From positions 1-34,670 of the IMG/VR virus record IMGVR_UViG_3300048037_000478: a DNA stretch of 34,670 nucleotides. The stretch is one strand, 5' to 3'. The notes below the pieces were generated by a model, which saw only the letters and a program-made list of their open reading frames with translations, did not search any database and was not told where the DNA came from. The position numbers and the translations under genes are program-made. Origin of the DNA: a virus. The number at the start of each line of letters is the position of its first letter. Position 1 is the first letter of the stretch. This document shows positions 2 through 17,576 of this stretch, one piece after another.

Positions 2-3000
2 CTTCCTGGTAATGCAGGATCATTTACAGATGTCAAGTTTGGATTTGGTTATAGAGATGCATCAAATACATACAAAGAAAAAATTGGTACAGACTTTACC
101 AACTTCTATTATTTTGATAGAAAAAATGTAGTAAATGCTGGAGGATCTTACTTAAAGATTATAACAGATCCATTACAAGGAATTAAGACACTCAACTATG
201 TTACAGCAAATCGTTTTGTTTATGATATTACTAGTCAGCCTCTTTGGGATGGTTCTGGATCCATTTCTTATACTACTACTGGTCAGTTCGCTATCGGTAA
301 AATCAATGAACTCGGTGTCATCAACCTTGGATTAAATTATAAAAAAGTACCTACAATTATTGGTGTTGATGCATCAGAAAGTTTTAGAGCTTCTGCTACA
401 GTATTATTTGACGTTGCAACTCAAACTATTACTGGAGTTAGAGTAGATAATAAAGGATCTAATTATTCAAAACCTAAAGTAGTAATCACAAATGGTGACG
501 GTATTGATGCAACATTTAATGTTGTTGTTAGAAATGGTGAGATTTTTTCATTGACTGTAGATAAACCAGGAAGAGGATATACGTTTGCACCTGAGATTAA
601 AATTATTGAGAGTGATGTAAAAGCATATGCTAATAGTAATAGTATTGGTGTTCCTAAAAGTATTAAAATTACTAAAAATGGTGGAGGTTTTCATTTAGAT
701 AAAACAGTATCTTCAACATTTACATCAAATTATATTCTTAGTGTAGAATCAGGTAAAGTTATTGGTTTAACTTTAAAATTAAAAGCACCATCAAGATTAT
801 ATGGACAAACATATTGGAATATTACAACTGCTATAGGTCCTTTTGTTGTAGGTGAAGAAGTTTATCAAACTAGATTGGATGAAAACACTTTAAATTACGT
901 AGAAATTGCAACAGGTATTGTTAAGACGTGGGATAATGATACTTTAGTTGTTGACGTTACTTCTGGAGAATTTGTTTATGCTCCTAATGCTCCAGATTAT
1001 GAACTTGGAGATTATGAACTATACAGTAGAACTGGAGTAACTATTGATAAAGGTGGACTCTCAGGTAATCCTTTCCCTTATCCAAATCGTGCGATTATAA
1101 CTAGAGAACCAGAAAATGTTACTAGTTTAGAATTACCAGTTTACAGAAAAGGTGAGATTGTAACTCAAAAAATTAATGATGTAGAAGTTTCTAGAGCAAT
1201 AGTATCTGAATGGAGAGAAGGATCCAATCTTCTAAAATTAGAAAATGTAACTGGTATTCTTAGAAAAAATATTCCTATTACAAGTTTTATAAACCCAAAT
1301 GAAACATCTAGAGTAAAAAGTATTTTTGTTACTTTGTTTGATGAACAGATTTCTAGTTTTTATGATAACTTAGGATTCTATAAATCAGATAAAGGTAAAC
1401 TTGGTGTTTCTAATCAAAAAATTACAGATAGTCTCTTCTATCAAGATTATTCATATGTTGTAAAATCTAAAACTCCAATTGATCAGTGGCGTGATTTAAT
1501 CAAGTCTACTACTCATCCTGCTGGATTTAAGTTATTTGGACAAGTAGATGTAGAATCAACTGCTAAATCTGAAATGCCAGTTGAAGTTCCTAAGGCATCT
1601 CACTTTAGTGTTGTTCAACTTTGGGATCCAGATAAAAATAAGATCACTGTTGAAAGTACAAAATACGCTATTATACAGTCTGTACAATCAGTTAAGAGTC
1701 AAAGAGTTCGTAAGGGTGTTGGTTCTGCTGCAACTAGTGAGTTCTTGTTTAATGAAGTTCGTGCATTTGAATTTACTATTAATGGTGTGTTTGATGGTTA
1801 CTATGATACAGAAGGAAAACTTCAAGGAACTACATCATTCCAAATTTTAGATGATGATGGACAAGCTTTCTTCCCATCATCTGAAAAAGGTCTTATTGTA
1901 ACTCTAGACGGTGTTATTCAAGAACCAGGTGTTTCTTATACTATTGATGGAGATAGAATTATATTTTCTGCACCTCCATTGGGTTCAGGAACTAAACTTA
2001 CTGGTGATAGTGGAGAAGTTTCTCAATATAAAGGCGTTACTTTTTATGGTAAAGTATTCCAGTTTAAGGATGAGCAATACAATACTAAACACCTAAGAAA
2101 GATCAGAAATATATTCCAACGTGGTGGAACATGGATAGATGCTGCAAATCAAATAGAGAGAAATGTAGAATTTATTGTAAATGAAACTGTTGGGTATGGT
2201 AAGGCAACTTATCCAACATTAGATTGGAGTACAAAGCAAGATGATTACGAAAGAAATATTCGTGCAATTTTAGATGCTTATCAACATGATATTAGATTTG
2301 GTGGAAATATAAAAACTATTGATTATACTTCTATTTTTAATTCTAATAGTGACTATTTGTATATTCAGAATAATAGGACACAATCTAATTCAATCTTTTC
2401 ATATGCCACAAGATTAGCAAAACTAGCTATTAGAAATTGGGACTATATTGATATTGGTGTTGAGTATATTCAAGGACAAAATACAATTAAAGTTACAAGC
2501 ACTGATGATCTTGCTGTTGGTTTATTTGTAAGTTCTGGTAAAGCATTCCATACATCAACTAAAATTATATCTATTGATAGCGATACACAAGTTACAGTAA
2601 GTAATCCTGCTCTTGCAAATTCTGGTGGTAGCGGTGGAGTGCCTGATGGTGTTACAAATATTAGTGGTAGTGCTGGTGCTGGTGTTACATCTAACCCAAC
2701 AAACACTGGTGCTGTTGTTCCTCCTAATACATTTGATGTTCCAGTTGGTTCTACATATGGTATTCCTGAGGCATTCTCAGGAAGTGACCAAGCAAAATTT
2801 GGTTGGAGTGCATTGAACAATGGTATGTTCTATAAAGCAGGAGAGTTAATTGATCTTAATAGAGCATATATTATATCTGAATCATTAACTTGGGCACAAG
2901 CACAATATCCATCGTTGAATTGGGGATCTATTGCTACTAAGTGTGGTAGAGACATTGGTCTCATTATAGATGCTTATGTTTACCATCTTAAGTTAGGTGG

Positions 3001-6000
3001 TAACTACAAAATTGTTGAGGCAGCACAATTATACTATCAGAAAAATGATTATCCATATGGCGAAGATCTTTATTACATTAGTGGACAGTTAACTGAGACT
3101 ATTGCTACGTTTGCATATGCTAGAGATCTAGCTATTCAGGCAATGAGAAATCAATTACCTGGTCAAGATCCTAATGTTTTAGTTGACTCTATTTCACCTG
3201 CATGTGCAGAAGTGGAAAGTACACTTAACACATATCATAGTATTGTCAATACTATTTTAACAGAGGGTAAAGGAGTTGTAGAAAAAACTAATCAAAATAG
3301 AAATAAAGCAGGTAATTGGACTCCTACTTTAACATATTCTAATTACAATATTTTAGGTGATCCTTTATTACCAGCACAAGAGTGTAATACTGTAATTTCT
3401 GCTGTTAATTCTCTCTTTGATAATGTAAGTGAAATCTTAGATCAAAAATCTGTTACTAGAACTCTTCCTGACTACGTTGACGGAGAAAATAAAGAGTTTG
3501 AATTATATTGGGATGACAATACAGAAGTTAATACAGAAGCAGATGAAAATCTATTCCTAACTCTTAACGCTGTATTACAAAAACCAAAATATACAGAAAG
3601 TTATCCTTTAGAAGATTCTTACTTTATTGATAGAAGTGTAATTCCTAACTTAATTAAATTTGATGTTGCTCCTATTTGGGATCAAGATTTAGGTGCTAAG
3701 ACTATTGGAGAACCAACAGCTGTAGAAAAAGTTTCTGGTATTGGTGTTGGTAATTACAAACGACTTACTATTGACTACAACTTAGTTGATGATGTAAAGA
3801 ACGGTCCTTTCTTAATTTTAGATGTAGAAGATTATACAGTACAAACTATTGAGGCAGAGGATGCTTTATACGTATTCCTAGATGGTGTCTTGCAAAGAAA
3901 AGGTTTATCATACACTATATCAGGTCCTAATATCTTCTTCAATGTTCCTATCAAAAAGGAGATGAAGATTGATATGAGATATCTCTTTGGAAGAGATGTC
4001 GGACAGGTTATCAACTTCTATGATTTTTCTCCAGATACTTATTTTGCTACTGGTATTTTAACTTTTGATTCAACAGATTCAATCTGGGATACATTCTCAA
4101 AGTATGCTTGGATGGGTGATAAAATTGGTTTACCTGTTCATGCATGGCAAGTAAAACCAGATGGAACTTATAATGTTATTGGTAAAGTAAGGAACTACAC
4201 TAATACTGGAACACAAATTAAATTTGATGTTCCTCAGGCACAGAACTCTACTATTTTGAGTGGTGTTGATGTTATCTTTGGTGTTGCAAGTTACTATGAT
4301 ACAAATATAACTGTTCCTGCTTCAGCATTTACAAATCCTACTTTAACATTAGTCAAAGATGAAGATGGTAGAAAATTATTAAAAGCTGATATTCAAGCAT
4401 GGTCAGGAACTGTTATCGGTAAAACTTATAGAAATCCTTTTGAGGTTTTATCAGGTGGAGATCAGATTCGTGTAGAAGGTGAAGAAGGTTTCAGAAAGAT
4501 AAAAAATCTTCCTGGTGTTACTACTAGTAAAGATAATAGAGATGGTGAACAACTATCAGATGATATTTTTGCTCCAGTCTCAGTTGAGTCTTATACTGGA
4601 ATAACGAGAGGTGAAGGTCTTTCAGTAATTGCTACTATTGAAAATGGTAGTGTTACCAAATTAACTTGGAATCAGCGTAGTTATGATCCTATTACACAAC
4701 CTACTGCATACCAGTATTTTACTCCACCAGTTCTTAAATTTGAACCTTTAAATGGTGACGGTGGTGGTGCAAGAGCAAATGTTCTTGTAAGTAAAGGTCA
4801 AGTTATTAGTGTTGATTTAATTGATGGTGGTTCTGGATATACAAAAGTTCCAAAAGTTATTGTAACAAGAAGATTTGATGTTCTAAGTGATAGAGGAATT
4901 GGTGTATCAAAGATCAATATCGCCTACAGACCTTACATAGATGTTTCTCAAGGTTCGTTAGTTATATCAACAATTGATATTCTTGGTAATAGACTAGTTG
5001 ATGCGTTCTCTTATTCTTCTGTGGATCTTATCAGTCCAGCAGCTGCTGATCGAGAAATTATAGCAGAGATTCAAACTGGAATTACTAATGTAATTGATAG
5101 TGAAACTGTTGGTAGTTCAATGCCAGTTGATGATGTGTCACAACCTCCATCTGAGGGTGCTTATATTGTTTATGTTGAACCAGAACCTGTTCAAATTGAT
5201 GGACAAGGTGGTGCGTTAAGACTTAAAGGTTCTGAAACTATTGTTAAGGCAGAGATTCAGGATGTTATAACTACAACTTCTATCACTAATGTATCTAAGG
5301 TAATTACAGCAACTCAACAGATTGAAATTCCTAATAATGCATTAAGCAATATCAATTACTTTGAAGATGCTGCATATCTTGATCTTGACTTTAACATTGG
5401 TGACGTTATTGCTTACATTCCTGATACATCTAAATTCTACGGAACAGGTCTCCTATTAATTGGAGATGAAGTTGTAAGATATAATAGAAAACTTAATGAT
5501 AGATTCCTTAACATTACTAGAGGAAGAAGAGGAACTACTCAAAAAGATTGGGTTGCTGGTACATTCTTAAGACAGATTCCAGAACTTGTATCTGTTGCTC
5601 CTGTTGGAATTGCTAAGATTGAGTCTGAATCTCAGTTAGTTGCTGTAAGCGTTGGTGCTGACGGAACTGGAAGAACTGAACAGAAAACTCAATATCAATT
5701 TGAAATTGATCAATTTGAGACTGTAGTTACTAGAGAAGTTCAACTTGATCTTCAACCACAATTAGATGTAAATTCTATTTCTAGTGTTATAGCAGAGATA
5801 GTTCGCAAACCACCAGAACTAGGACCTAATGTAATTAAATCATTCGTTACTAGTCACAATCAAACTGTTGTTACCAATAGGGTACAGATAGTTCATAGTG
5901 AATTTGTAATGCAAAAGAACCAACTAGAGGTTCTATTAATTACACCACCAGGCGGAGTTATTGATGGATTTGAAGAAACTGTATTCATTACAGATCCTAT

Positions 6001-7336
6001 CAACATCAGATCTGGTAACACTACTGGTGGTCATGATGGAGAGGTTGATATTGTTGATGTTGGTGGTCGTTACTACGTTGTTAAGAGAGATACGACTGAA
6101 ATATTCATTGACAACGCTACCTTTGGTGTTGATAGTGAATACGTTGGAAAATACACTAAGACAAATGCTGGTCACAGAATCAGTCACTTTGATGGTATAT
6201 TTGATGATGGTACATCTAAAGTTTCTGGATTATCATTATTTGAAGTTGACTTATACTTTGGAGCACTTACTATCAGAGATTTTACTGAAAGAGCTAACTC
6301 CAGTTATACTCTAGCAGGTGACAAGTTCAACTTATTGAATCCTTCAATTCAGAATCCAGTTCAGATTAATACTAATGCAGTAACTTTCTCTGGTCCAGAA
6401 CAATCTCTTGTTGTATCAGACACCACAGGTTTCCCAGATGAAGGGTATCTTTATCATAGTAATGGAGAAGGAACACAAACTCCTGTAGGAAATTTACAAC
6501 AAAGACAATATGCAGTTGGTGGAACTGTGGACTTAGAGATTAGTTCTAATCAAAAGTTTGGTGATAGATCTGTATATTTGTCTAGACTTGCTGGAAATAA
6601 TGATGGAAATTATTTAGCTGCTTATAATTTTGAATTAGGTGCAGGAGACTTCTCAATTGAATATTGGTTTGATAAAACAACTCTAGCATTCCCAGCATCA
6701 CCTGGAGCACTTATTTTCTATGGAAGTAATCTATTAACAGGAGCTAGTTGGGGTGGAGGTAGCTATTTCCGTCCTAATTTTGGATTCTCTATGTTTGTAG
6801 ATGTATTTTACGGTACAAACTCATCATTGAAGTTCTGGAATGGTGAAACTGGAACATTCGATACTCTCACTGGTTTCCTCAGTGCGAATACATGGTATCA
6901 TATTTCAATTGTTCGTAAGAATGGAACCATAAAAGTTTACTTAAATGGTGTAGAGAAAGCATCTAGATCAAATAGTCAAGATTACTCAACTGCTGGTGCA
7001 GCTGCGGCAAGTAACGCTTGGGGAACTGGAGGAACTGGTTTCTTTGATATTGGTTCTCACAACACCGCTACTGGATATGATACGTTCCATGGCTACATAG
7101 ATGATGTCAGTGTCAGTACTGTTGCTCGTCGTGATGGAAACTTTAATGTTCCTACAGCACCAGCAACTGTTGACAGTAACACAATCCTATATGATAACTT
7201 TGATACCATTATACCAAGTTATACTGGTGTGATCAAATACACTGGTAGAAGTCCATCGACATTCACTGGATGCACCGTACATAACGGTGATAATCAAATT
7301 GTTTCTGGTTCTGAAATAGTTCCTTTTACAATTTGA
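2..7336 (+). CDS. gp7-like baseplate wedge protein with giant C-terminal extension (5' partial)
   Basis: The frame is open from base 2, so the start lies upstream; 2444 residues are visible. I call it gp7-like for two reasons. It sits directly before gp8, as gene 7 does in T4. Around visible residues 480-513 it has a YVVKSKTPIDQWR...HPAGFKLFG stretch resembling, from memory, the C-terminal Arg-Trp...HPVGFGF region of T4 gp7. T4 gp7 is only about 1030 residues, so everything after about residue 515 would be an extension. That extension holds 'DGVxQxPGxSYTI' strands (bases 1906-1980, 3868-3952, a weaker one near 3555), two alpha-helical modules (2138-2440, 2852-3154), a GGSGYTKVP repeat near 4830, an IGDEVVRY...ITRGRRGT segment near 5460-5545, and a LamG-like domain at the end. 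Three degenerate Gly-Tyr-Pro repeats lie at 310-610. It is probably a virion protein of the baseplate periphery. The gp7 identity is moderately supported; its virion role is much firmer. Confidence 0.7.
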   Translation, partial: LPGNAGSFTDVKFGFGYRDASNTYKEKIGTDFTNFYYFDRKNVVNAGGSYLKIITDPLQGIKTLNYVTANRFVYDITSQPLWDGSGSISYTTTGQFAIGKINELGVINLGLNYKKVPTIIGVDASESFRASATVLFDVATQTITGVRVDNKGSNYSKPKVVITNGDGIDATFNVVVRNGEIFSLTVDKPGRGYTFAPEIKIIESDVKAYANSNSIGVPKSIKITKNGGGFHLDKTVSSTFTSNYILSVESGKVIGLTLKLKAPSRLYGQTYWNITTAIGPFVVGEEVYQTRLDENTLNYVEIATGIVKTWDNDTLVVDVTSGEFVYAPNAPDYELGDYELYSRTGVTIDKGGLSGNPFPYPNRAIITREPENVTSLELPVYRKGEIVTQKINDVEVSRAIVSEWREGSNLLKLENVTGILRKNIPITSFINPNETSRVKSIFVTLFDEQISSFYDNLGFYKSDKGKLGVSNQKITDSLFYQDYSYVVKSKTPIDQWRDLIKSTTHPAGFKLFGQVDVESTAKSEMPVEVPKASHFSVVQLWDPDKNKITVESTKYAIIQSVQSVKSQRVRKGVGSAATSEFLFNEVRAFEFTINGVFDGYYDTEGKLQGTTSFQILDDDGQAFFPSSEKGLIVTLDGVIQEPGVSYTIDGDRIIFSAPPLGSGTKLTGDSGEVSQYKGVTFYGKVFQFKDEQYNTKHLRKIRNIFQRGGTWIDAANQIERNVEFIVNETVGYGKATYPTLDWSTKQDDYERNIRAILDAYQHDIRFGGNIKTIDYTSIFNSNSDYLYIQNNRTQSNSIFSYATRLAKLAIRNWDYIDIGVEYIQGQNTIKVTSTDDLAVGLFVSSGKAFHTSTKIISIDSDTQVTVSNPALANSGGSGGVPDGVTNISGSAGAGVTSNPTNTGAVVPPNTFDVPVGSTYGIPEAFSGSDQAKFGWSALNNGMFYKAGELIDLNRAYIISESLTWAQAQYPSLNWGSIATKCGRDIGLIIDAYVYHLKLGGNYKIVEAAQLYYQKNDYPYGEDLYYISGQLTETIATFAYARDLAIQAMRNQLPGQDPNVLVDSISPACAEVESTLNTYHSIVNTILTEGKGVVEKTNQNRNKAGNWTPTLTYSNYNILGDPLLPAQECNTVISAVNSLFDNVSEILDQKSVTRTLPDYVDGENKEFELYWDDNTEVNTEADENLFLTLNAVLQKPKYTESYPLEDSYFIDRSVIPNLIKFDVAPIWDQDLGAKTIGEPTAVEKVSGIGVGNYKRLTIDYNLVDDVKNGPFLILDVEDYTVQTIEAEDALYVFLDGVLQRKGLSYTISGPNIFFNVPIKKEMKIDMRYLFGRDVGQVINFYDFSPDTYFATGILTFDSTDSIWDTFSKYAWMGDKIGLPVHAWQVKPDGTYNVIGKVRNYTNTGTQIKFDVPQAQNSTILSGVDVIFGVASYYDTNITVPASAFTNPTLTLVKDEDGRKLLKADIQAWSGTVIGKTYRNPFEVLSGGDQIRVEGEEGFRKIKNLPGVTTSKDNRDGEQLSDDIFAPVSVESYTGITRGEGLSVIATIENGSVTKLTWNQRSYDPITQPTAYQYFTPPVLKFEPLNGDGGGARANVLVSKGQVISVDLIDGGSGYTKVPKVIVTRRFDVLSDRGIGVSKINIAYRPYIDVSQGSLVISTIDILGNRLVDAFSYSSVDLISPAAADREIIAEIQTGITNVIDSETVGSSMPVDDVSQPPSEGAYIVYVEPEPVQIDGQGGALRLKGSETIVKAEIQDVITTTSITNVSKVITATQQIEIPNNALSNINYFEDAAYLDLDFNIGDVIAYIPDTSKFYGTGLLLIGDEVVRYNRKLNDRFLNITRGRRGTTQKDWVAGTFLRQIPELVSVAPVGIAKIESESQLVAVSVGADGTGRTEQKTQYQFEIDQFETVVTREVQLDLQPQLDVNSISSVIAEIVRKPPELGPNVIKSFVTSHNQTVVTNRVQIVHSEFVMQKNQLEVLLITPPGGVIDGFEETVFITDPINIRSGNTTGGHDGEVDIVDVGGRYYVVKRDTTEIFIDNATFGVDSEYVGKYTKTNAGHRISHFDGIFDDGTSKVSGLSLFEVDLYFGALTIRDFTERANSSYTLAGDKFNLLNPSIQNPVQINTNAVTFSGPEQSLVVSDTTGFPDEGYLYHSNGEGTQTPVGNLQQRQYAVGGTVDLEISSNQKFGDRSVYLSRLAGNNDGNYLAAYNFELGAGDFSIEYWFDKTTLAFPASPGALIFYGSNLLTGASWGGGSYFRPNFGFSMFVDVFYGTNSSLKFWNGETGTFDTLTGFLSANTWYHISIVRKNGTIKVYLNGVEKASRSNSQDYSTAGAAAASNAWGTGGTGFFDIGSHNTATGYDTFHGYIDDVSVSTVARRDGNFNVPTAPATVDSNTILYDNFDTIIPSYTGVIKYTGRSPSTFTGCTVHNGDNQIVSGSEIVPFTI
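2138..2440 (+). repeat. Alpha-helical module, copy A (in gp7-like gene)
   Basis: This about 100-residue unit runs from DAANQIERN to LAIRNW. It reads: aliphatic/Ala start, NVEFIVNE, YPTLDW, (Y)ERNIRAILDAYQHDIRFGGN, then a short linker and an ATRLAKLAIRNW end. It has the helix-rich character (regular I/L/A spacing) that the surrounding beta-repeats lack. Copy B has the same length, 303 bases. This copy has Tyr where the other three copies have the Cys of C-x-RDI. I do not know its function. Confidence 0.7.
2852..3154 (+). repeat. Alpha-helical module, copy B (in gp7-like gene)
   Basis: It runs from DLNRAYIISES through YPSLNW, CGRDIGLIIDAYVYHLKLGGN and ends in YARDLAIQAMRNQ. It has the same order of motifs and the same length as the copy 412 bases upstream, and matches two copies in the 4000-residue gene. 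A further helix-like segment with CAEVESTL follows, as CAQVESTI follows copy D in that gene. Confidence 0.75.
6545..7180 (+). other. LamG / concanavalin-like jelly-roll domain (C-terminus of gp7-like protein)
   Basis: The last about 210 residues show the order typical of Laminin_G_3-type domains: FSIEYWF near the start, then WYHISIVRKNGTIKVYLNG as the central strands, then FDIGSH...FHGYIDDVSVS at the end. In such domains this is a beta-sandwich that often binds sugars. In this position it could touch host surface glycans or another virion protein. The fold is a family-pattern call; ligand binding is inference. Confidence 0.75.
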
Positions 7337-7397: not shown

Positions 7398-9212
7398 ATG
7401 GCTGCTATTATCTCTGATAAGTTTCGTATTTTTAACGCGAAACAATTTCTAGAATCACTTACCGAAGGGGTCTCAGATACAGATCCTGATAAGACTAGAA
7501 TGTATTTCTTCGTGGGTCGCCCGCAACCATGGAGAGCTTACTTAGAACTTTACTCAAAAAACTCTACAGCATTTACTGTAGGTGATGAGGTTTACGTAGG
7601 AACGTATGGTTCTACTGCTTTCCGTGCTACAATTGCTGCAGTTTACGACAGTGCTTTATTATTGACCGACGTTTTTGGAAGTTCTGGCGTTAACTCTGCT
7701 CCTCCTCTAGGATCAAGTCTTAAGTGTCGTACTGGTGGTTCTGGTGGTTCTGATACAGGTGCTACTGCTAAATCTGGTGTTTATCGTTACGCAACTGAAG
7801 ATGTTCCTCCCCTTCCTCTTGATAATCAAAGAGAAAAAAGAAATCTTTATGACGAACTAATTGCTGCCAAGCGTATTACTGATACTTTTGCAAGAACAGT
7901 TATCCGTCGTTACAACTGGGATCTAGTTGCTAACCCTAAGTATGATATGTGGAAACCAGACTACTCTGCTACACCTGGTGGCGGTGGACAGATTGGTAAA
8001 CAGACTGCAACAGGTCAAAATAGTATTGCTGATGCTAAGTTCTATGTAATGAACTCTCAATATGAAGTATTTAAGTGTCTATACAACGGAGAAGATCCTT
8101 CTAACTCAACAGGTCAGGGTGCAACTGAAGAACCAACTACTGCAGGTGGTAACTATAATAGTTCTACTGGACTTTACACTGAGACAACTGGTGCAAAGTA
8201 TATTTGGAAGTATATGTACACAATTTCAACTGATGACGTGTTGAAATTCCTTTCTTCCGACTTTATGCCAATCGTTCTTGCTTCTAACTCTTCTAGACAA
8301 GGTGTTACTGCAGCTGCTGTTGATGGTGCTGCTGATGTTGTTGTTATTGAAGACGCTGGTTCAGGTCTTCCTGCATCAGATACCATATACACAAGTATTA
8401 AAGGTGACGGATCAGGTGGTATTGTAAAATTTGTAACAAATGGTTCTGGTACAATCACATCTGCTGAGATAGAAGCTCGTGGATCAGGTTACACATATGC
8501 TAATGTTCTTTTAGGTAATGGTAACTTATTTGCGGATGCAGGATTATCATCTGCTTTAACAACTGGTGCATCTGCTGTTGGAGCTCTTGAAATTATTCTA
8601 CCTCCCGAAGGTGGACATGGTTCAGATCATGAAACAGAATTGAATGGTAAGCGTGTTATGACAAACATTCGTCTTACATATTCAGAAGGATCTGGAGACT
8701 TCCCTGTAGATAACGACTTCCGTAGAATTGGTATTATTGCTGATCCATTTAACTGGGGTACTACAACATTCTCTACTGCTGAAACATTATCTGGTTTAAA
8801 ATCTGTTAAAATTACTGGTGCTACTGCAGATTACTCAGTTGACGAGAAAATTACTCAAACCGTATCTGGTGGTACTGCATATGGTACAGTTGTATCATGG
8901 ACACTTGATAGTGGTTCCACAACTGCTGGTGTTCTTAAGTATATCCAAACTACAGATGCACACACAGATTCTGGAGTTGTAAGACCATTTGAATCTAATG
9001 GTTCTAATGCAATTACTGGTGAGACATCTACTGCATCTGGTACTGTAAATACTTCATATGGTTCAACAACATTAGGAGTTACTTTCTCAAGTGGTTTAGC
9101 AGCACCTGAAATTGAAAATAATTCTGGTGATGTCATCTATGTTGAGAACAGAAGACTAATCACTCGTGCTCCTGATCAGATTGAAGATATCAAGTTAGTT
9201 ATTGAATTCTAA
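7398..9212 (+). CDS. gp8: Baseplate wedge subunit gp8
   Basis: This is a 604-residue homologue of T4 gp8 (334 residues), a structural subunit of the baseplate wedge. Landmarks align in order with T4 gp8 as I recall it: ISDKFRIFNAKQF and an FFVGRPQPW block (residues 7-46; T4 has SKFR and FGRSEPW), an Arg-Arg-x-x-Trp segment (about 171), YIWKYMYTIS (about 268; T4 YVWEYLFEIP), FRRIGIIADPF (about 441; T4 FRQISIITNPL) and the C-terminus SGDVIYVENR...DQIEDIKL (T4 GEMIYMENR...DQTEEINI). The extra length comes from three blocks: about 50-125, a Gly-rich GSGYT repeat near 354-375, and about 462-575 just before the last strands. The start follows a late promoter cluster; the ribosome site is weak (GGA 12 bases upstream). 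Its neighbours match T4 order on the upstream side. Confidence 0.92.
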   Translation: MAAIISDKFRIFNAKQFLESLTEGVSDTDPDKTRMYFFVGRPQPWRAYLELYSKNSTAFTVGDEVYVGTYGSTAFRATIAAVYDSALLLTDVFGSSGVNSAPPLGSSLKCRTGGSGGSDTGATAKSGVYRYATEDVPPLPLDNQREKRNLYDELIAAKRITDTFARTVIRRYNWDLVANPKYDMWKPDYSATPGGGGQIGKQTATGQNSIADAKFYVMNSQYEVFKCLYNGEDPSNSTGQGATEEPTTAGGNYNSSTGLYTETTGAKYIWKYMYTISTDDVLKFLSSDFMPIVLASNSSRQGVTAAAVDGAADVVVIEDAGSGLPASDTIYTSIKGDGSGGIVKFVTNGSGTITSAEIEARGSGYTYANVLLGNGNLFADAGLSSALTTGASAVGALEIILPPEGGHGSDHETELNGKRVMTNIRLTYSEGSGDFPVDNDFRRIGIIADPFNWGTTTFSTAETLSGLKSVKITGATADYSVDEKITQTVSGGTAYGTVVSWTLDSGSTTAGVLKYIQTTDAHTDSGVVRPFESNGSNAITGETSTASGTVNTSYGSTTLGVTFSSGLAAPEIENNSGDVIYVENRRLITRAPDQIEDIKLVIEF

Positions 9213-9218
9213 AAACTA

Positions 9219-9256
9219 CGCTAAATACTAAAGACTAGATACTTAGTATTTTGGCG
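9219..9256 (+). other. Inverted repeat / hairpin between gp8 and the DUF4815 gene
   Basis: AAATACTAA (9223-9231) is exactly complementary to TTAGTATTT (9243-9251) around an 11-base loop. CGC (9219-9221) can pair with GCG (9254-9256) beyond a small internal loop. The left arm contains most of the CTAAATA late promoter core. The stem is AT-rich, so as RNA it would be of modest stability. It could be a weak terminator or processing site after gp8, or a protein-binding operator. Confidence 0.55.
9221..9227 (+). promoter_or_regulatory. Late promoter core CTAAATA
   Basis: CTAAATA, the variant of the T4 late element reported for marine T4-like phages, lies 8 bases after the gp8 stop. It ends 36 bases before the ATG of the 2698-residue gene, the same spacing as at the gp8 and 4000-residue gene junctions. 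It probably starts the transcript of the next four genes. Confidence 0.65.
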
Positions 9257-9263
9257 AAGTAAG

Positions 9264-12200
9264 ATGCCTCAGAAGACAAACCTAAATGTAAATCCTTATT
9301 ATGAGGACTTTGACGCGAGTAAGAATTTTTATAAAATTCTATTCCGTCCTGGTTACTCTATTCAAAGTAGGGAATTAACGCAAGCACAATCTATTCTCCA
9401 AAACCAGATTGAGAGTTTTGGAAAGTATGCATTTAAGCAGGGAGAACTTGTTATTCCTGGTGAGGTAGGTCTTAACACAAAATTAGATTACGTAAAATTA
9501 TCGTCTGTTTCTGAAGTTGCTGTTTCAGAAGGAGACGATATTGTTTATAAGAAGTATGATATTTCTCAGTTAGTTGGTCAACAATTAGTTGGTCTTACTT
9601 CTGGAGTTACAGCTACTATTTTAACTACAAAATTAGCAACCGAATCTTCTGCGGATACTTTATTTGTTAGTTACATTAATAGTGGTAATTCTAATACTGA
9701 GTCTACTTTTAGACAGGGTGAGACTCTAGAGGTAGTTGATGGCGTTAATACTCCTTTACTAGTTGTAGGAACAGATGGTAGTGTTTTACCAACTAGTATT
9801 CAAATTACAGATCCTGATACAGGTGCGGTAACTTCATTAGAAAGTTCTGCAATGGGATTTGGTTCTGCTGTTAAAGTAGAAGAAGGTATTTACTTTGTTA
9901 ATGGTTATTTTGTTCGTAATAGTGAACAACTTTTAGTTATTGATGAATATTACAACAAACCATCTGCAAAAGTAGGTTTTACAATTAAGGAAGATATTGT
10001 AACACCAGAAGAAGATGCAAGTTTATATGATAATTCTATTGGGTCTGCAAACTACACTGCACCTGGCTCACATAGACTAAAGATTACTTTAGAGTTAAAA
10101 GAATTCGCTCTTGGTTCAATTACTGATAAGAATTTTATTCAATTACTAAGTGTCTCTAGAGGTCAAATTCAAAGTAAGATTTCCTCTACAGATTTTAGTG
10201 TATTAGAACAAACTTTAGCTCGTAGAACTTTTGATGAAAGTGGTGACTATGTTGTAGATAATTTTTCTGTAGATATTAGAGAATGGGCACAGAAAGATGG
10301 TAATAGAGGTCTTTATGGTGTTGATGAGTTTGGTCTTTATAATGGACAAACTGCTGGTGAGTCAGCAAGAAAAATGGTTGCCAGTATTGGTCCTGGTAAA
10401 GCGTATATAAAGGGATATGAAATTGTCAATAAGGAAACTAAGTATCTAGAAATTAATAAAGCAAGAGAAAGTCTTTCTAGTGATAATGTAAATCTTAAGA
10501 GTAAAGGTCTACCAACATTTAATCTTACTAATGTTTATGGTAGTGTTCCTTTGAACAAAGAAGGATCTGAGTTAACTGCATATCCTGATGTATTTTTATA
10601 TTCAACATTTAATGATGGATCTATTGGTTTAAACAATACAGAGTTATCAACTGATCATAGACAAACTATTGATAGAAGAGGTAAGACTTTTAGTACTGAT
10701 GATGGAATTAAAACTATCACCTTACAGATCACTAATACTGTAACTTTAATTGGTTCAGTAACAGATTCTACATTCCAAACTCAGTTTGGCGAGTTGTTCT
10801 TTGTTAAAACTAGAAGTGATTTAGGAACACCAACTGCAATTAGTTCTTTTAAAACACTATCTTTTGCAACATCAAACAAACCACTAATCAATGCATCTAC
10901 ATCTGTTCAATTTTTAGAACTAACAGTATTTGGTAATAAAAGTGAACTAGAATTACTATGCTTAGAATATGACTTATCTGATAGTGAAAATAAGAGAAGA
11001 ATTTATTTAACAGAAGCTGATGCAGCTGCAGCAAATGATGAGTTTGGATTTATCGTAGATTATTCAGACATTATCACTCCTGTTATTGGTAAAACAAAAC
11101 CAAGCAACTTTTTCTTAAAGAGTAGAGGATCTGGATTTAATTCAGATTCTGACATTGTAATATCAAAAGGTCGTTTAGAAGCAGGAACACCTGCATATAA
11201 TTCTACATTTGGTTATTCTTATTTTGACCCACAGTTCTTTACTAAGGTTATTTTAGAAAATATTCCTGCAGGTGCTAATGCATTTGATGAGGGTAAATAT
11301 GTATTTGGTATTAATAGTAATGCATATGGAGTTGTAGAAGGATCATCTGCTGGTGTTTATAGTACAGGAAGAATTTTATTTCTTAAAACTTTATCTGGTA
11401 AGTTCCAATCTGGTGAAACAATTAGAGATGAAGATGGTAATACTGTAAAAATTGCAAAAGACAATACAATATCACATTTTATTGTTCAGAAAAGAGGTTT
11501 AGGATATGCTGATGGTTGTACTCTATTAATAAATGGTCTTGAATTTGATGAATCAAAAATTTCAATAGGTAAGACTGTTCCAGGTAACATTTACAATGCT
11601 ATTATTAATAATAGAAGAGCAGTAAATGTTGAATATGCTCAACCTCCTGCAGTAACTGTACAAAATCCTGATGGAGCAGCTACACCTAGTTCTGCAGCTG
11701 CTGTTGTACCTGTTCTATTCAGAAACACAGTAACAACATATACTCCACAGAATGTAAAATCTATTGGTTGTGAGTATGGTTCTGGAAACTCCAACACTTT
11801 CTCTGCTGATGTTGTTGTAAATAGTCAAACGGATGCAGAAATTAAATCTGTAACAAGTTTTACTTTCTTTGGTTCTCAAGGAACTAATTTTATTGAGTCT
11901 ACAAGTTTTAGTGCTGATGCTTCTACATTACTACAGCAAGGGGATCTTATACAATTATCTGACGATAGCAATAATCTAGTTCGTGCAGTAGTACAATATG
12001 CTACAAAACAAGAAGGATCTTCTAAAACTAGAGTTTACATAGATACAGTTCTACCTGGTGATGTTACAAATACAAGTATAGTACGTTTACGTCCAAAAGT
12101 AAGTAATACTAATTCTGGTACATTACTATTCCCAACTGGTAGTAAGCAAGTTTCTCAAGTATCTGCTGGTGGAGATGATACTAAGATCAAGTATTATTTT

Positions 12201-15200
12201 CGTAGAGATTTTGTAACTACTGCATCTTCTGGTGGTGGTACAATTACATTTGCTGCACAGTTACCATTTGGTACACAAAGATTTGCTGCTTTTAGTGAGA
12301 GTAACTTTATTATTACTGTACTAGATCCTGGCGACGCTCCTAGTATTGTAAAAGGTGATATTATTTACGTGTCTGATGATTCAGTAGAAATTACATCTGC
12401 TACTGACACTGCTAGTGGTCTTACATCTGGTAGTATTAGTTTACAGTTAGCATCAACATATTTTGGAACTATTCCTTCTAATGGAACATTCCCTAAATTA
12501 AAACTTACTGCAACTCTTGAAGTATCTAATGCAAAACCAAGACTTAAAACTGCTATAAGAAATAAAAGATTAGTTATTGCTTCTGCTGGTGATCGTATAG
12601 TTCCATTTAGAGGACAAGATTACGATAATGAAGTAGTAGAAACTTTATCATATTCTGACGCTTTCAAATTATTATATGTTTATGAAGGAACTTCTTCTCA
12701 AGCACCTGATGTAGACTCTGCAGGTAATTTAATTTCAGGAACTGATGTTACTGCTAGATATACATTTGATAATGGTCAAAGAGATACAATATATGATGTT
12801 TCTAGAATCGTTCTAAAACCAGGATTTGAACCTGCTGCTGGTCAATTACTAATTGCGTTTGATTATTTTGAGCAATCTCAAGGAGATTTCTGTACTATTG
12901 ATAGTTATCTACATGAGGCAGGTGTTCCAGAAGATGAGATTCCATCTTTCAATTCATCAGTTCATGGAAACTTAGAACTTAAGAATGCAATTGATTTCAG
13001 ACCTAAAGTAGATAGTAGTGCTATCATTCCTGGTTTCCTTAATATTGCTTCTCTTGAGACTACTGCTGGATCTTTTGCTGGTGCTGGTGCTATCTTGTCA
13101 AGCACACCAGCTCCTGATTCTAATTTAGAATATACATTCTCATTTAGTCAGATTCAATACTTAGATCGTATTGATGGTATTTTCTTAGATAAGAAAGGAA
13201 ACTTTATTGTTAAAGAAGGTAATTCATCTCTCAACCCATCTAAACCAGATCCTATTGATGATGCTGTACCTCTTTTCTATGCATACATTCCTGCATTTAC
13301 AAAAACAACTAAAGATGTAAGGATTACTCCTGTTGATAACCGCCGTTACACAATGCGTGATATCGGTAAGTTAGAAAAGCGTATTGAAAGACTTGAGTAC
13401 TATACTACTCTCAGTATCCTAGAACAGCAAGCTCTTAACATGCAAGTTAAGGATGATATTGGTCTAGACAGATTTAAGTCTGGTTTCTTTGTCGATAACT
13501 TTGAAGCACATAAAGTTGGAAACTTACAATCTCTTGATTACAGATGTGCAGTGGACAGTCAACAAAGTGTCCTACGTCCTCAAGCAAAAGAAGATTCTGT
13601 AAATTTGGAAGAAGTAAATGTAAGAGAAGATCAGAGATCTGTTTCTGGATATAAGAAGTCTGGAGATATGGTGACTCTACCTTTCTCTCCTTTAAATTTA
13701 CTAGGAAATAATTTTGCATCTAAAACTTTAAATCCAAATCCATTTGTTGTTCTTCAATATGTTGGTGATGCAGAAATATCTCCTTCTATTGATCATTGGT
13801 ATGATCAAACTGAGGAACCATTAGTAGTCGATACCAATACAGATCTGTTTAATATTTTCATAGCAAAAGAAAATGTAAAAGAAAGTTTTTCAAGTCTCTT
13901 TAATTCATTTGTAGTTAACTGGGTTGGAACATCTACTTCATTTACTACTATTAATTCTCTAGGAGAAAATAATACACAACAAGCTATTACATCTGTTGCT
14001 AGTGCATCTGTCTCAAGTTCTTCCAATATTAGTCCTCAAAATAATGAGGTGGGTAAAGGAGTTGCAACTAAAACAGTTGGAGAGAGTTTAGTTTCAACTT
14101 CATTAGCATTCTTCGCTAGAAGTATTCCTGTTAGGTATGTGATTAAAAGAATGAAACCTAACACAAAGATGTATGTCTTTTTAGAAGGAAGAGATATTGG
14201 TCGTTGGGCGAATCCAGATTTAAGATTTACTGGTATTGCTGGTAACTCTTTATCTGCATTTAATGGTGAGATTACAACTGATGAATATGGTAATGCTAGT
14301 GGATTAATTGTTGTTCCTGCTGGTTTACCACCACTTGAAAATGCAACTTGGACTGGTGATGTAGATACTCTAGCATATGACACTTCTGCTGATGAAATAT
14401 CAATTACCTCTGGTGTGTTGACATTTAGATTTACTTCTAGTTCAACTAATGCACCTAAAGAAGAAGTTGATAGTTACACAGAAGTTAAATATTATGCTAC
14501 AGGTCTTCTTCCAGAAAACCCATCAAGCATCGTATCTACAAAACCATCTTATTTTAAATCAAATGAAGGTGTTCAGTTAATTGAAAGTAATACTGATAAT
14601 CCTATAAGACCTAATCCTCTTGCACAAACATTTAAAGTAGAAAATTTAGATGGTGGATGTTTTGTAACTGGTTTAGATCTTTACTTTAGTAAGAAGAGCA
14701 CTAATATCCCAGTTAAAGCATATATCTCTAATGTTGATGCAGAAAAACCAGCTAAGAACATTGTTCCTGGTTCTGAAAAAACTCTTTCTCCAAATACATT
14801 CCTCAAGTGTTTTGCTAGTGGTAACGTAGCAGTTTATGTGGGTGAAAGTGTAACAGGTGCATCTTCTTCTGCATCAGGTCCTATTCTTAAGATCTTTGAT
14901 AAAAATAATGTAGAATTAGTTGCAACTGCATCTGGTAAGTTCAGTCTTACAAACGAGCAAGTATATACTTTAGTTCTCAGTAACCATAATGGTAAATCTT
15001 TTGTACAAAATGAAGATTTAATTATTCCATCTGTCACAGAAGCAAATGCAAAAAATAACACTGATCTTGTTCTTTCTATAGCAAAAAATAGTGGTAAGGT
15101 TTCTAAGATGAGAATTACTAACACTGGTCAAAATTATGACAGTGCAATTCTTACTATTGAAAGTCCTCAGTTACCTGGTGGATCTACTGCTACTGCAGGT

Positions 15201-17360
15201 ATAGAGGTTTCTGGTGGTAAAATTTATAACGCTGAAGTATCACTTAGTGGTTTTGGTTATACAGAAGCTCCTTCTGTAGTTGTTAAAGGTGTTGGAAATG
15301 GAGCAGGTGGATGTGAGATTCAAACATTCATTGAAATTGATACACCAGCAGTTAGAATGGGTGTGTCTATTGACGCTGGAGAAGTAACAAACTCCACAAC
15401 ACCTACACACTTTGCATTTGATTATCCTGTTTATCTACAGAATGATACTGAATATGCATTAGTAGTAGAAACAGATTCTACTGATTATGAACTCTGGGTT
15501 TCTAAACTTGGTGAAACTGACATTGCTACAAGTACGGTTATTACAACTCAACCATCTCTAGGTTCGGTATACCGTTCCCAAAATACCGAAAGTTGGACTG
15601 AAGATATTTTTGAGGATCTTAAATTTGTTCTTTACAGAGCAGAGTTTGATATTACTAGACCAGCAGAACTTCTTCTTAAGAATAAAAATCTTGGATATGA
15701 ACTTCTTAATGCAAATCCTATTGAAACAAATGCAAGTTCTAATTCTGCTTCCACATCTAGTCTATTCAAGAACAATAATGCCGTTATTAAAGTAAATCAT
15801 AGAGATCATGGTTTTGAAGATAGTGGTAAGTCATATGTCTTCTATAGAACTGCAGTTGAGACTGGAGGTATTACTGCTTCCACTATTAATAGTAATCTAT
15901 TTAAAATAACCAACTCTGGTATTGATTCTTATAATATTCTTTCTCCATCTCAAGCTGCAGGAAACTCTCTTGGTGGTGGTACTTCTGTATATGCAAGTCA
16001 TAATAGAAAGTTTGAGACTTTATATCCACAAATTCATTATCTAACATTTACAGGAACAACATTAGATGTTTCTGTGAAAACTACTAATGTAGTTCCTGTA
16101 GATTCTTCTACAACAAACTATGTTTCATATTCACAAGCAGAATATGAAAGAACTTTCTTGAATGAACCACATTACTTTACCAATCAAAAGATGATTGCTT
16201 CTGAGATTAACGAAACTTTAAACAGTGTTTCAAGATCTTTAACTTACAAGATGCAACTATCTTCTACATCTGGTAATCTTTCTCCAATCATTGATCTTTC
16301 TAGTGCATCTGTAAAAACATTAAGTAATAGAATAGAAAATGCAAAAGGAGAGGAAAACAGATTTGGTAGAAGAGATCAAGTTATTGAGTTCTTCCCAGTT
16401 TATCAGTTTGAACTTGCTGGTAACGGTGGAACACAAATACAAGATGATCAAATAATTGAAGGAAAAACTTCTAAGACAACTGGAACTATTGCAAGAGTTA
16501 ATGGTAGTGTTGTTTATGTAAGAGTAAAGACAAGTCAATTCTTCCAAAAAGGAGAAACTGTTTCTCTAGGTAATCAAACTCAATTAACAAATGTTACTGT
16601 TGACTCTAACCCATCACAAGTATTCGCATCTATTGATGATGGTGCTACAATTGAAGCAAGAAATCCATCTGTAATTCTTGAAACATATGAAAATATTATT
16701 ACTGGTAAAGCAGTTATATGGAATACTCAAACTCAAGAATTAACTACTAGAGTTGATGTTAATCCTATTAATGATAATTACACTGATAGGATTATTGATA
16801 ATGCATTCTATAATAGAAATGCTGTTATTGGTGATCAAATTGCTGACATCTTCCGTGTAGGAGATTTTGTTAAATATCCTAACCAACCAGATGAGGAAGC
16901 AAATTATTTAGAAGTAGGTAAAATTACTTATACTAATGGTGTTGATTTTGTTGTTGAAAATACTTCCAAGAATGGTTCTGCAATATCTAAGTATGTAACT
17001 AAGGAAGTTGTTATTAATAATCCAGCAACTGCTATTGATGTACATCTAATGGCAAATGTTAAGGATATTTCTAATATTCAAGTTCTCTATAAATTTAAGA
17101 AAGCATCTAGTCAAGAAAACTTTGAAGATATTGATTGGGTATTATTCAATGATGATGGACAACCAGATACTTTAGAATTAGCAACTACAGAAAATACAAT
17201 TTCAAGTGTTGTTGAGAAACAATCTTCTTATCAAGATCTTAAATATAGTGTATCTAATATTGATGAATATTCATCATTTGCTATTAAAGTTGTGATGCTT
17301 GGTGTTGATCCTTCATTTGTTCCTAAGATTCAAGACATTCGTGCGGTTGCAGCATTCTAA
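9264..17360 (+). CDS. DUF4815-type giant virion structural protein
   Basis: The protein has 2698 residues. Its N-terminus (NVNPYYEDFD, FYKILFRPGYSIQSRELTQ, then a Gln-rich helix) matches the DUF4815 family of large phage structural proteins as I know it. Other family-like blocks are a helical RRYTMRDIGKLEKRIERLE segment (about 1360-1395), an LAQTFKVENLDGG...LDLYFSKK beta-domain (about 1785-1812), a FAFDYPVYLQNDTEYALVV block (about 2050-2070) and a C-terminal domain (about 2590-2698) ending in IKVVMLG...PKIQDIRAVA. Gly-Tyr repeats occur near 620, 742 and 1950-2016. It follows gp8 where T4 encodes gp9 and gp10, so it probably joins the baseplate rim or connects fibres. Ribosome site: only a weak AAGTAAG directly before the ATG. 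The family call is firm; the exact role is inferred. Confidence 0.8.
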   Translation: MPQKTNLNVNPYYEDFDASKNFYKILFRPGYSIQSRELTQAQSILQNQIESFGKYAFKQGELVIPGEVGLNTKLDYVKLSSVSEVAVSEGDDIVYKKYDISQLVGQQLVGLTSGVTATILTTKLATESSADTLFVSYINSGNSNTESTFRQGETLEVVDGVNTPLLVVGTDGSVLPTSIQITDPDTGAVTSLESSAMGFGSAVKVEEGIYFVNGYFVRNSEQLLVIDEYYNKPSAKVGFTIKEDIVTPEEDASLYDNSIGSANYTAPGSHRLKITLELKEFALGSITDKNFIQLLSVSRGQIQSKISSTDFSVLEQTLARRTFDESGDYVVDNFSVDIREWAQKDGNRGLYGVDEFGLYNGQTAGESARKMVASIGPGKAYIKGYEIVNKETKYLEINKARESLSSDNVNLKSKGLPTFNLTNVYGSVPLNKEGSELTAYPDVFLYSTFNDGSIGLNNTELSTDHRQTIDRRGKTFSTDDGIKTITLQITNTVTLIGSVTDSTFQTQFGELFFVKTRSDLGTPTAISSFKTLSFATSNKPLINASTSVQFLELTVFGNKSELELLCLEYDLSDSENKRRIYLTEADAAAANDEFGFIVDYSDIITPVIGKTKPSNFFLKSRGSGFNSDSDIVISKGRLEAGTPAYNSTFGYSYFDPQFFTKVILENIPAGANAFDEGKYVFGINSNAYGVVEGSSAGVYSTGRILFLKTLSGKFQSGETIRDEDGNTVKIAKDNTISHFIVQKRGLGYADGCTLLINGLEFDESKISIGKTVPGNIYNAIINNRRAVNVEYAQPPAVTVQNPDGAATPSSAAAVVPVLFRNTVTTYTPQNVKSIGCEYGSGNSNTFSADVVVNSQTDAEIKSVTSFTFFGSQGTNFIESTSFSADASTLLQQGDLIQLSDDSNNLVRAVVQYATKQEGSSKTRVYIDTVLPGDVTNTSIVRLRPKVSNTNSGTLLFPTGSKQVSQVSAGGDDTKIKYYFRRDFVTTASSGGGTITFAAQLPFGTQRFAAFSESNFIITVLDPGDAPSIVKGDIIYVSDDSVEITSATDTASGLTSGSISLQLASTYFGTIPSNGTFPKLKLTATLEVSNAKPRLKTAIRNKRLVIASAGDRIVPFRGQDYDNEVVETLSYSDAFKLLYVYEGTSSQAPDVDSAGNLISGTDVTARYTFDNGQRDTIYDVSRIVLKPGFEPAAGQLLIAFDYFEQSQGDFCTIDSYLHEAGVPEDEIPSFNSSVHGNLELKNAIDFRPKVDSSAIIPGFLNIASLETTAGSFAGAGAILSSTPAPDSNLEYTFSFSQIQYLDRIDGIFLDKKGNFIVKEGNSSLNPSKPDPIDDAVPLFYAYIPAFTKTTKDVRITPVDNRRYTMRDIGKLEKRIERLEYYTTLSILEQQALNMQVKDDIGLDRFKSGFFVDNFEAHKVGNLQSLDYRCAVDSQQSVLRPQAKEDSVNLEEVNVREDQRSVSGYKKSGDMVTLPFSPLNLLGNNFASKTLNPNPFVVLQYVGDAEISPSIDHWYDQTEEPLVVDTNTDLFNIFIAKENVKESFSSLFNSFVVNWVGTSTSFTTINSLGENNTQQAITSVASASVSSSSNISPQNNEVGKGVATKTVGESLVSTSLAFFARSIPVRYVIKRMKPNTKMYVFLEGRDIGRWANPDLRFTGIAGNSLSAFNGEITTDEYGNASGLIVVPAGLPPLENATWTGDVDTLAYDTSADEISITSGVLTFRFTSSSTNAPKEEVDSYTEVKYYATGLLPENPSSIVSTKPSYFKSNEGVQLIESNTDNPIRPNPLAQTFKVENLDGGCFVTGLDLYFSKKSTNIPVKAYISNVDAEKPAKNIVPGSEKTLSPNTFLKCFASGNVAVYVGESVTGASSSASGPILKIFDKNNVELVATASGKFSLTNEQVYTLVLSNHNGKSFVQNEDLIIPSVTEANAKNNTDLVLSIAKNSGKVSKMRITNTGQNYDSAILTIESPQLPGGSTATAGIEVSGGKIYNAEVSLSGFGYTEAPSVVVKGVGNGAGGCEIQTFIEIDTPAVRMGVSIDAGEVTNSTTPTHFAFDYPVYLQNDTEYALVVETDSTDYELWVSKLGETDIATSTVITTQPSLGSVYRSQNTESWTEDIFEDLKFVLYRAEFDITRPAELLLKNKNLGYELLNANPIETNASSNSASTSSLFKNNNAVIKVNHRDHGFEDSGKSYVFYRTAVETGGITASTINSNLFKITNSGIDSYNILSPSQAAGNSLGGGTSVYASHNRKFETLYPQIHYLTFTGTTLDVSVKTTNVVPVDSSTTNYVSYSQAEYERTFLNEPHYFTNQKMIASEINETLNSVSRSLTYKMQLSSTSGNLSPIIDLSSASVKTLSNRIENAKGEENRFGRRDQVIEFFPVYQFELAGNGGTQIQDDQIIEGKTSKTTGTIARVNGSVVYVRVKTSQFFQKGETVSLGNQTQLTNVTVDSNPSQVFASIDDGATIEARNPSVILETYENIITGKAVIWNTQTQELTTRVDVNPINDNYTDRIIDNAFYNRNAVIGDQIADIFRVGDFVKYPNQPDEEANYLEVGKITYTNGVDFVVENTSKNGSAISKYVTKEVVINNPATAIDVHLMANVKDISNIQVLYKFKKASSQENFEDIDWVLFNDDGQPDTLELATTENTISSVVEKQSSYQDLKYSVSNIDEYSSFAIKVVMLGVDPSFVPKIQDIRAVAAF

Positions 17361-17369
17361 TTTCCGCGT

Positions 17370-17576
17370 ATGGACTATATTAAAGTAAGTGGACATGATG
17401 GTCTTGTAAGAGATAAAAACACTGGTGCCATAATCAATTTAGACGATTCTGCGATTGCTGCGAGACGTAAGTCAAAACAGCTAGGTTCCGCGTTGGACGA
17501 CATAAATATGTTGAAGAACGAAATCTCAGAAATCAAATCACTACTTCGAGAGTTAGTAAAAAATGCCAGCAATTAA
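17370..17576 (+). CDS. Small coiled-coil protein, probable virion component
   Basis: This 68-residue protein begins MDYIKVSGHDGLVRD, followed by a KNTGAIINLDDSA segment and a charged helical half (about 35-66) with heptad-like I/L spacing (DDINMLKNEISEIKSLL), suggesting a short coiled coil. Small proteins with an (V/S)-G-H-x-x-LVRD-x-x-TGAIIN start occur near fibre and baseplate genes in marine T4-like phages, as far as I recall; their role is unknown. It starts 9 bases after the previous stop and overlaps the next gene by 14 bases, so it is a real member of the unit and likely translationally coupled. No clear ribosome site precedes it. It could assist folding or oligomerisation of the following fibre protein, which is inference. 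Confidence 0.8.
   Translation: MDYIKVSGHDGLVRDKNTGAIINLDDSAIAARRKSKQLGSALDDINMLKNEISEIKSLLRELVKNASN
17501..17508 (+). promoter_or_regulatory. Possible internal late promoter core CATAAATA
   Basis: CATAAATA lies inside the 68-residue gene and matches 7 of 8 positions of the T4 late consensus. It is 54 bases before the 17563 start, longer than the 28-39 bases at the other junctions. In AT-rich DNA a chance match is quite possible. Confidence 0.3.

Follow-up and report, generated by a model that had tools for sequence, protein, structure and literature searches.

A LamG-like domain nested in the C-terminal module of a gp7-position tail protein of marine T4-like phages: a candidate exchangeable adhesion lobe

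Insertion of a carbohydrate-binding-type domain into a conserved tail protein is known from the distal tail protein (Dit) of lactococcal 936-group siphophages, where near relatives are empty ("classical") and the evolved versions (evoDit) carry several groups of insert (PMC10688798, PMC6669499). Adding such an insertion gave the phage back its ability to infect hosts that bear exopolysaccharide (PMC10688798), and domain shuffling is described as common in tail and baseplate proteins (PMC10684548). GP075 of Pseudomonas phage K8, a putative baseplate wedge protein, also contacts host sugar; a GP075 variant binds core oligosaccharide, which gives baseplate sugar contact a precedent, but mutant versions and no domain insertion are involved (PMC9887876). 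In cyanophages and pelagimyophages, the LamG/ConA structural proteins of S-MbCM6, P-HM2, and S-H9-1 share the Pfam family and the structural operon of the domain described here, and the operon's unidentified structural proteins carry YHYH and concanavalin A domains, according to a pelagimyophage paper (PMC7029224). That structural proteins of cyanophages can carry LamG domains has thus been published before. Those of the three phages named, however, lie at other sites and in other lineages and are not nested at the C-terminal loop. S-MbCM6 (NC_019444, 50779-71847) has a 7022-aa frame with two LamG domains after gp6; this protein is followed by a gp9-like connector, and gp8 comes only further on. 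Among 28 records, the LamG domains were at most 34% identical to that of the window (the whole 34,670-nucleotide stretch of viral DNA analyzed here, positions 1 to 34,670 of IMG/VR record IMGVR_UViG_3300048037_000478). A YHYH domain (PF14240) was also seen at residues 697-856 of the 7633-17973 protein of locus L002; it belongs to the N-terminal part of full-length homologues, which the window lacks.

The window contains an architecture of the evolved-Dit type: a binding-type domain that sits within a tail-protein loop and is missing from near relatives. Its fold, its nesting that spares the host protein, its dispensability, and the exchange of its alleles together match it to evolved Dit insertions. 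The evoDit insert is BppA-like, has a demonstrated effect on adsorption, and resides in Dit, a protein of siphophages that infect Gram-positive bacteria, whereas here the host protein is a PHROG 4406 protein of the gp6-gp8 interval, the insert is a LamG domain, and the case is built from sequence and a structural model. No account of a LamG domain at this C-terminal site, or of its exchange, was found in the largely open-access literature searched. The comparison thus points to a known trick, a sugar-binding-type insertion in a tail-protein loop, used here in what seem to be a new host protein and a new group of phages; the evidence for exchange is good. The features concerned are as follows.

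2 to 7336, plus strand: giant virion structural protein (gp7-position protein), 5' end cut by the contig start
6431 to 6458, plus strand: conserved C-terminal module, first half (FPDEGYLYH...), the strand leading up to the insertion site
6459 to 7223, plus strand: LamG cassette with linkers, 765 bases opposite 15 bases of the relative L008
6602 to 7129, plus strand: LamG domain proper, Laminin_G_3 (PF13385), E 4.8e-13, above the cut-off
7224 to 7336, plus strand: conserved C-terminal module, second half (GVIKYTGRSPSTFTGCTVHNGDNQIVSGSEIVPFTI), and stop
7398 to 9212, plus strand: gp8-like baseplate wedge gene (Phage-Gp8 PF09215, PHROG 438), directly 3' of the gp7-position gene
9264 to 17360, plus strand: DUF4815 protein (PF16075), called "virulence-associated structural protein" in relatives' annotation

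The first of these reading frames is open at its 5' end and shows 2444 aa, relatives being about 3450 aa long. Its product belongs to PHROG 4406, "virion structural protein," and matched 401 annotated phage records, 24 of them covering at least 80% of the query and all below 60% identity; the best annotated relatives are Synechococcus phages. The gene order in the isolates opened is gp6, gp7-position protein, gp8, and DUF4815 protein, with gp25 upstream of gp6 in the two isolates opened furthest upstream; the window itself starts inside the gp7-position gene and shows the gp8 side only. S-B43 (MN018232) departs from this order: its gp6/gp25 segment faces the opposite way to the interval protein and gp8, and its interval gene has an annotated length of just 4173 bases. 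Further downstream, positions 22412-34414 of the window form one 4000-aa frame with a match to the tail fibre protein PHROG 5342, several stretches of which also match PHROG 701 and 18802.

Profile and structural comparisons agree on the nature of the inserted domain. PF13385 was matched at residues 2201-2376 with 38.8 bits in the whole protein and 45.3 bits in the C-terminal piece, against a curated cut-off of 27.6 bits. An AlphaFold2 model spanning window positions 6317-7333, built on an alignment of 70 rows (mean pLDDT 76.6, pTM 0.69), matched LamG, pentraxin, and ConA-like sandwiches, with a best Foldseek E value of 1e-8 and VIA-align Z scores (rows restricted to model residues 55-298) of up to 17.1 over 188 residues, the top score being that of the LamG module of the protease PAPP-A. 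Pentraxin, domain 4 of AbnA, a neurexin LNS domain, and a phage tailspike sandwich were also among the structural matches, and matches to viral models included several cyanophage proteins whose annotation reads either baseplate wedge initiator or structural protein. A phmmer search against solved structures returned one chain, AbnA domain 4 (PDB 5hon; E 1.7e-5, VIA-align Z 15.3), the nearest solved sugar-binding relative and, by its structure title, an arabinotriose complex; searching PDB sequences with a profile of the full-length family gave one weak tail-protein match (E 0.0037), the rest being at chance level. AbnA domain 4 and the ConA-like domain of the CBA120 tailspike TSP2 (PDB 5w6p) have the same sandwich fold but sit in enzyme and tailspike contexts, at 12-19% identity, and a common fold alone demonstrates no function. 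ConA-like glucanases of the GH16 type carry a catalytic motif of ExDxxE type. The pattern E.D.{1,2}E had no match in residues 2157-2406, and a catalytic glucanase reading was rejected because the GH16-like motif is missing there. The LamG-like domain proposed in a preliminary description of this DNA is therefore borne out, both by a profile match above the cut-off and by the predicted sandwich.

The same description had placed the domain at the end of the protein, and in this respect it needs correcting. The insert comprises 255 codons where L008, an 86%-identical relative, has 5, and the flanking DNA is 88% and 92% identical to that of L008. After the LamG domain, the C-terminal module resumes for the last 38 residues, which are conserved in relatives that have no LamG, so that the domain is nested in a loop and not terminal. 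The module residues on the two sides (...FPDEGYLYH and GVIKYTG..STFTGC......I..GSEIVPFTI) make up one small unit, with the LamG in its middle. Relatives were gathered with the preceding 424 residues (61 IMG/VR loci, plus phage records); 70 of the 71 read, near-duplicates included, have 36-55 residues after residue 2150-2156 and then a stop, the exception being L026, with 279. The reading frame of the window is open through both insert junctions. The G+C content of the insert (0.378, against 0.335 in the remainder of the gene and 0.396 in gp8) is near that of its neighbours, and composition thus gives no foreign mark.

Filled and empty versions of the site coexist among relatives. A scan with the LamG alignment gave at least 80 loci, of which the best two, L094 and L095 (46%), encode the homologous protein with a LamG at the identical site and gp8 next; the other 78 of the loci listed had no such downstream module. 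Core scans were seeded on the window (61 loci; otherwise blind to LamG) and on L094 (at least 80 loci), and LamG occurred in 1 of the 61 and in 5 of the 80 listed, a share that depends on the scan and is not a natural frequency. A survey of C-termini covered 154 loci among the matches listed, the window and duplicates included, and these reduced to 96 distinct C-termini. Among these matches, a full LamG lies at the exact site in 4 of the 96 (the window, L026, and the L094 and L095 alleles), whereas 90 are without it, one of them (L299) being cut just past the module start. Of the remaining two, also among the matches listed, one (L296) ends with its contig 25 residues into the LamG, and the other (L275, IMGVR_UViG_3300008111_000279) stops inside the module (FPSSGYLFTN*) by truncation, frameshift, or sequencing error. 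The site holds no LamG in any of the 10 isolate loci read. L026, L094, and L095 come from other contigs, with the site as in the window and gp8 downstream, and the L094 allele is present in four contigs (L094, L175, L252, and L333, the last found by DNA pattern). Empty sisters are known for the window (L008-L010) and for L094 (L253, with 91% core identity, and L255/L256). In each of the four full inserts the reading frame is uninterrupted and the core residues of LamG are retained; among the matches listed, these inserts are one another's nearest LamG relatives at one site. A related-locus search with the window LamG alone gave no match, a two-row alignment retrieved the L026 contig only, and a search of genome contigs gave six LamG loci in bacteria, at 24-29% identity, and no donor. 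With most relatives empty and a few carrying different versions at the same spot, the insert looks like an exchangeable part.

Comparison of alleles strengthens this impression. On a core tree of 85 rows, thinned from 139 with a located site (15 of the 154 loci being left out, 14 because their site string was not recognised and 1 because it was too short), the 5 LamG rows require 4 changes, 4 of them forced by starred branches, with a bootstrap range of 4-4. Shuffled labels required a mean of 4.9 changes, and 37 of 500 shuffles were equally low; moreover, since such counts are blind to gain versus loss, repeated loss of an old insert may account for part of the pattern. L094 and L095 are 61.7% identical in amino acids within the insert and 89.9% outside it, the lowest identity in 106 equal-sized windows outside the insert being 85.9%. 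Both dN (0.307 in the insert versus 0.054 outside) and dS (0.66 versus 0.22) are raised, which suggests replacement by a diverged allele, with no need to invoke positive selection. The two differ at 31 of 88 positions within strands and at 60 of 150 positions elsewhere (p 0.49); differences are thus not concentrated away from strands, and selection on loops leaves no sign. In L296, the first insert bases are identical to those of L095 at 73 of 75 positions, whereas the cores agree at 554 of 972 (57%), with a best core window of 57 of 75; on the core tree, L296 joins the clade of the window (96/81) on a long branch. As this match is 75 bases long and lies where a contig ends, a place prone to assembly errors, it may reflect a false join and is support rather than proof. 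Between the insert of the window and the three others, identity is 38-48%, much the same distance as separates the cores, which indicates that the window's insert was acquired earlier or came from a donor outside the sample. That the site is either empty or holds one of several divergent LamG alleles, apparently swapped by recombination via the conserved flanks, is well supported by these comparisons.

We propose that the sandwich, which sits within a loop of the final small beta module in the gp7-position tail protein, is held between the two halves of the host module, which would close around it and display it as a side lobe while leaving the rest of the protein unchanged. Recombination across the conserved flanks appears to carry LamG alleles from one diverged host gene to another, and the lobe may bind a polysaccharide or other glycan (O-antigen, capsule, or exopolysaccharide) borne by some hosts as the baseplate approaches the cell. 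Swapping of alleles would then track changes of the host surface. Accessory adhesion is most likely the role of the lobe, judging from its fold and its pattern of exchange; exposure, glycan binding, and a part in host range are what we infer from these. For the explanation as a whole, we have moderate confidence. Alternatively, the lobe may be a structural or docking domain that binds another virion protein (a fibre, gp8, or a neighbouring copy) and adjusts assembly or stability instead of contacting the host. Besides glycans, LamG domains bind proteins, and the top Z scores here fall on the LamG module of a protease, PAPP-A. However, relatives with up to 91% identical cores are without LamG, which is thus dispensable for assembly, and the alleles diverge far beyond the rest of the protein. 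Presence or absence in near relatives, together with the exchange of divergent alleles, is easier to reconcile with a module for host contact than with one of the structural core, and we consider a structural role unlikely, though still worth bearing in mind.

About as unlikely is a location outside the baseplate, with the lobe decorating the neck, whisker, or head-proximal tail. PHROG 4406 is placed in the category head and packaging, and gp7 is stated to be absent in these groups, apparently replaced by VrlC, in the pelagimyophage paper (PMC7029224). Like T4 gp7, the protein is encoded between gp6 and gp8, and there is one remote segment match by way of the wedge PHROG 17744, hit by both S-WAM2 161-282 and T4 gp7 646-758; the segment is absent from the window. 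In contrast, T4 gp7 has 1032 aa as opposed to about 3450, and its Pfam Gp7 domains (helical, V, and VI), detected in T4 gp7 itself, were found neither in the window protein (E to 0.1) nor in the full-length S-WAM2 and S-RSM4 homologues (E to 1). An hhalign comparison with T4 gp7 gave a probability of 9% (E 0.0035, 69 columns). An outright gp7 label was rejected as unsafe on these grounds, and "gp7-position protein" is the safe name; the earlier term "gp7-like" is backed by the position of the gene in relatives and not by detectable T4 gp7 domains. The accompanying remark that T4 gp7 carries no LamG domain agrees with the lack of a LamG match to it in Pfam. Against a location outside the baseplate are the gp6-gp8 interval position in isolates, the wedge PHROG segment, and the annotated gp7 of P-HM2, which occupies the same interval and whose homology to the S-WAM2 protein emerged from a single comparison (E 7e-48). 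Given the order gp25-gp6-[gp7-position protein]-gp8 in relatives, a place in the baseplate is plausible. Public records conflict in their gp7 labels (NC_015284, NC_023587): P-HM2 has two gp7 genes, one of 4454 aa between gp6 and gp8 and a 2423-aa LamG protein downstream, while in S-MbCM7 "gp7" is the protein after gp8, and another record names the interval protein VrlC.

The LamG could also be a neutral passenger, tolerated in the loop and spread by recombination with no selected function. Its rarity (4 full and 1 partial among the 96 distinct C-termini of the matches listed), its absence from all 10 isolate loci read, and the lack of loop bias between L094 and L095 would suit such a history. 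Maintenance of frame and core residues in all four full inserts argues the other way, as does their mutual proximity at one site, which repeated random insertion would not yield, and we regard a passenger as improbable. Joining of unrelated LamG reads to the window's gene during assembly was rejected as scarcely credible: the allele of the window is known from one contig only, but its frame is open across both junctions, the same architecture recurs in L026, L094, and L095, and the L094 allele, seen in four contigs, is no assembly accident.

In sum, a nested, displayed LamG lobe, swapped by recombination and serving accessory adhesion to host glycans, is the reading we favor. A bolder version, which we offer tentatively, is that the C-terminal loop is a dedicated docking port of marine T4-like phages, in which LamG cassettes from a population-wide set, swapped via the flanks by homologous recombination, act as a baseplate host-range switch, an "evolved gp7" to set beside the evolved Dit of siphophages. 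With site, flanks, and alleles defined, the module should be easy to score in metagenomes. For marine cyanophages, tail fibres and the hypervariable region are the usual guides to host range; if the proposal is true, an exchangeable adhesion module in a core wedge-interval protein would add a second determinant that has so far been overlooked, and the evolved-Dit principle would extend from siphophages of Gram-positive hosts to oceanic T4-like phages.
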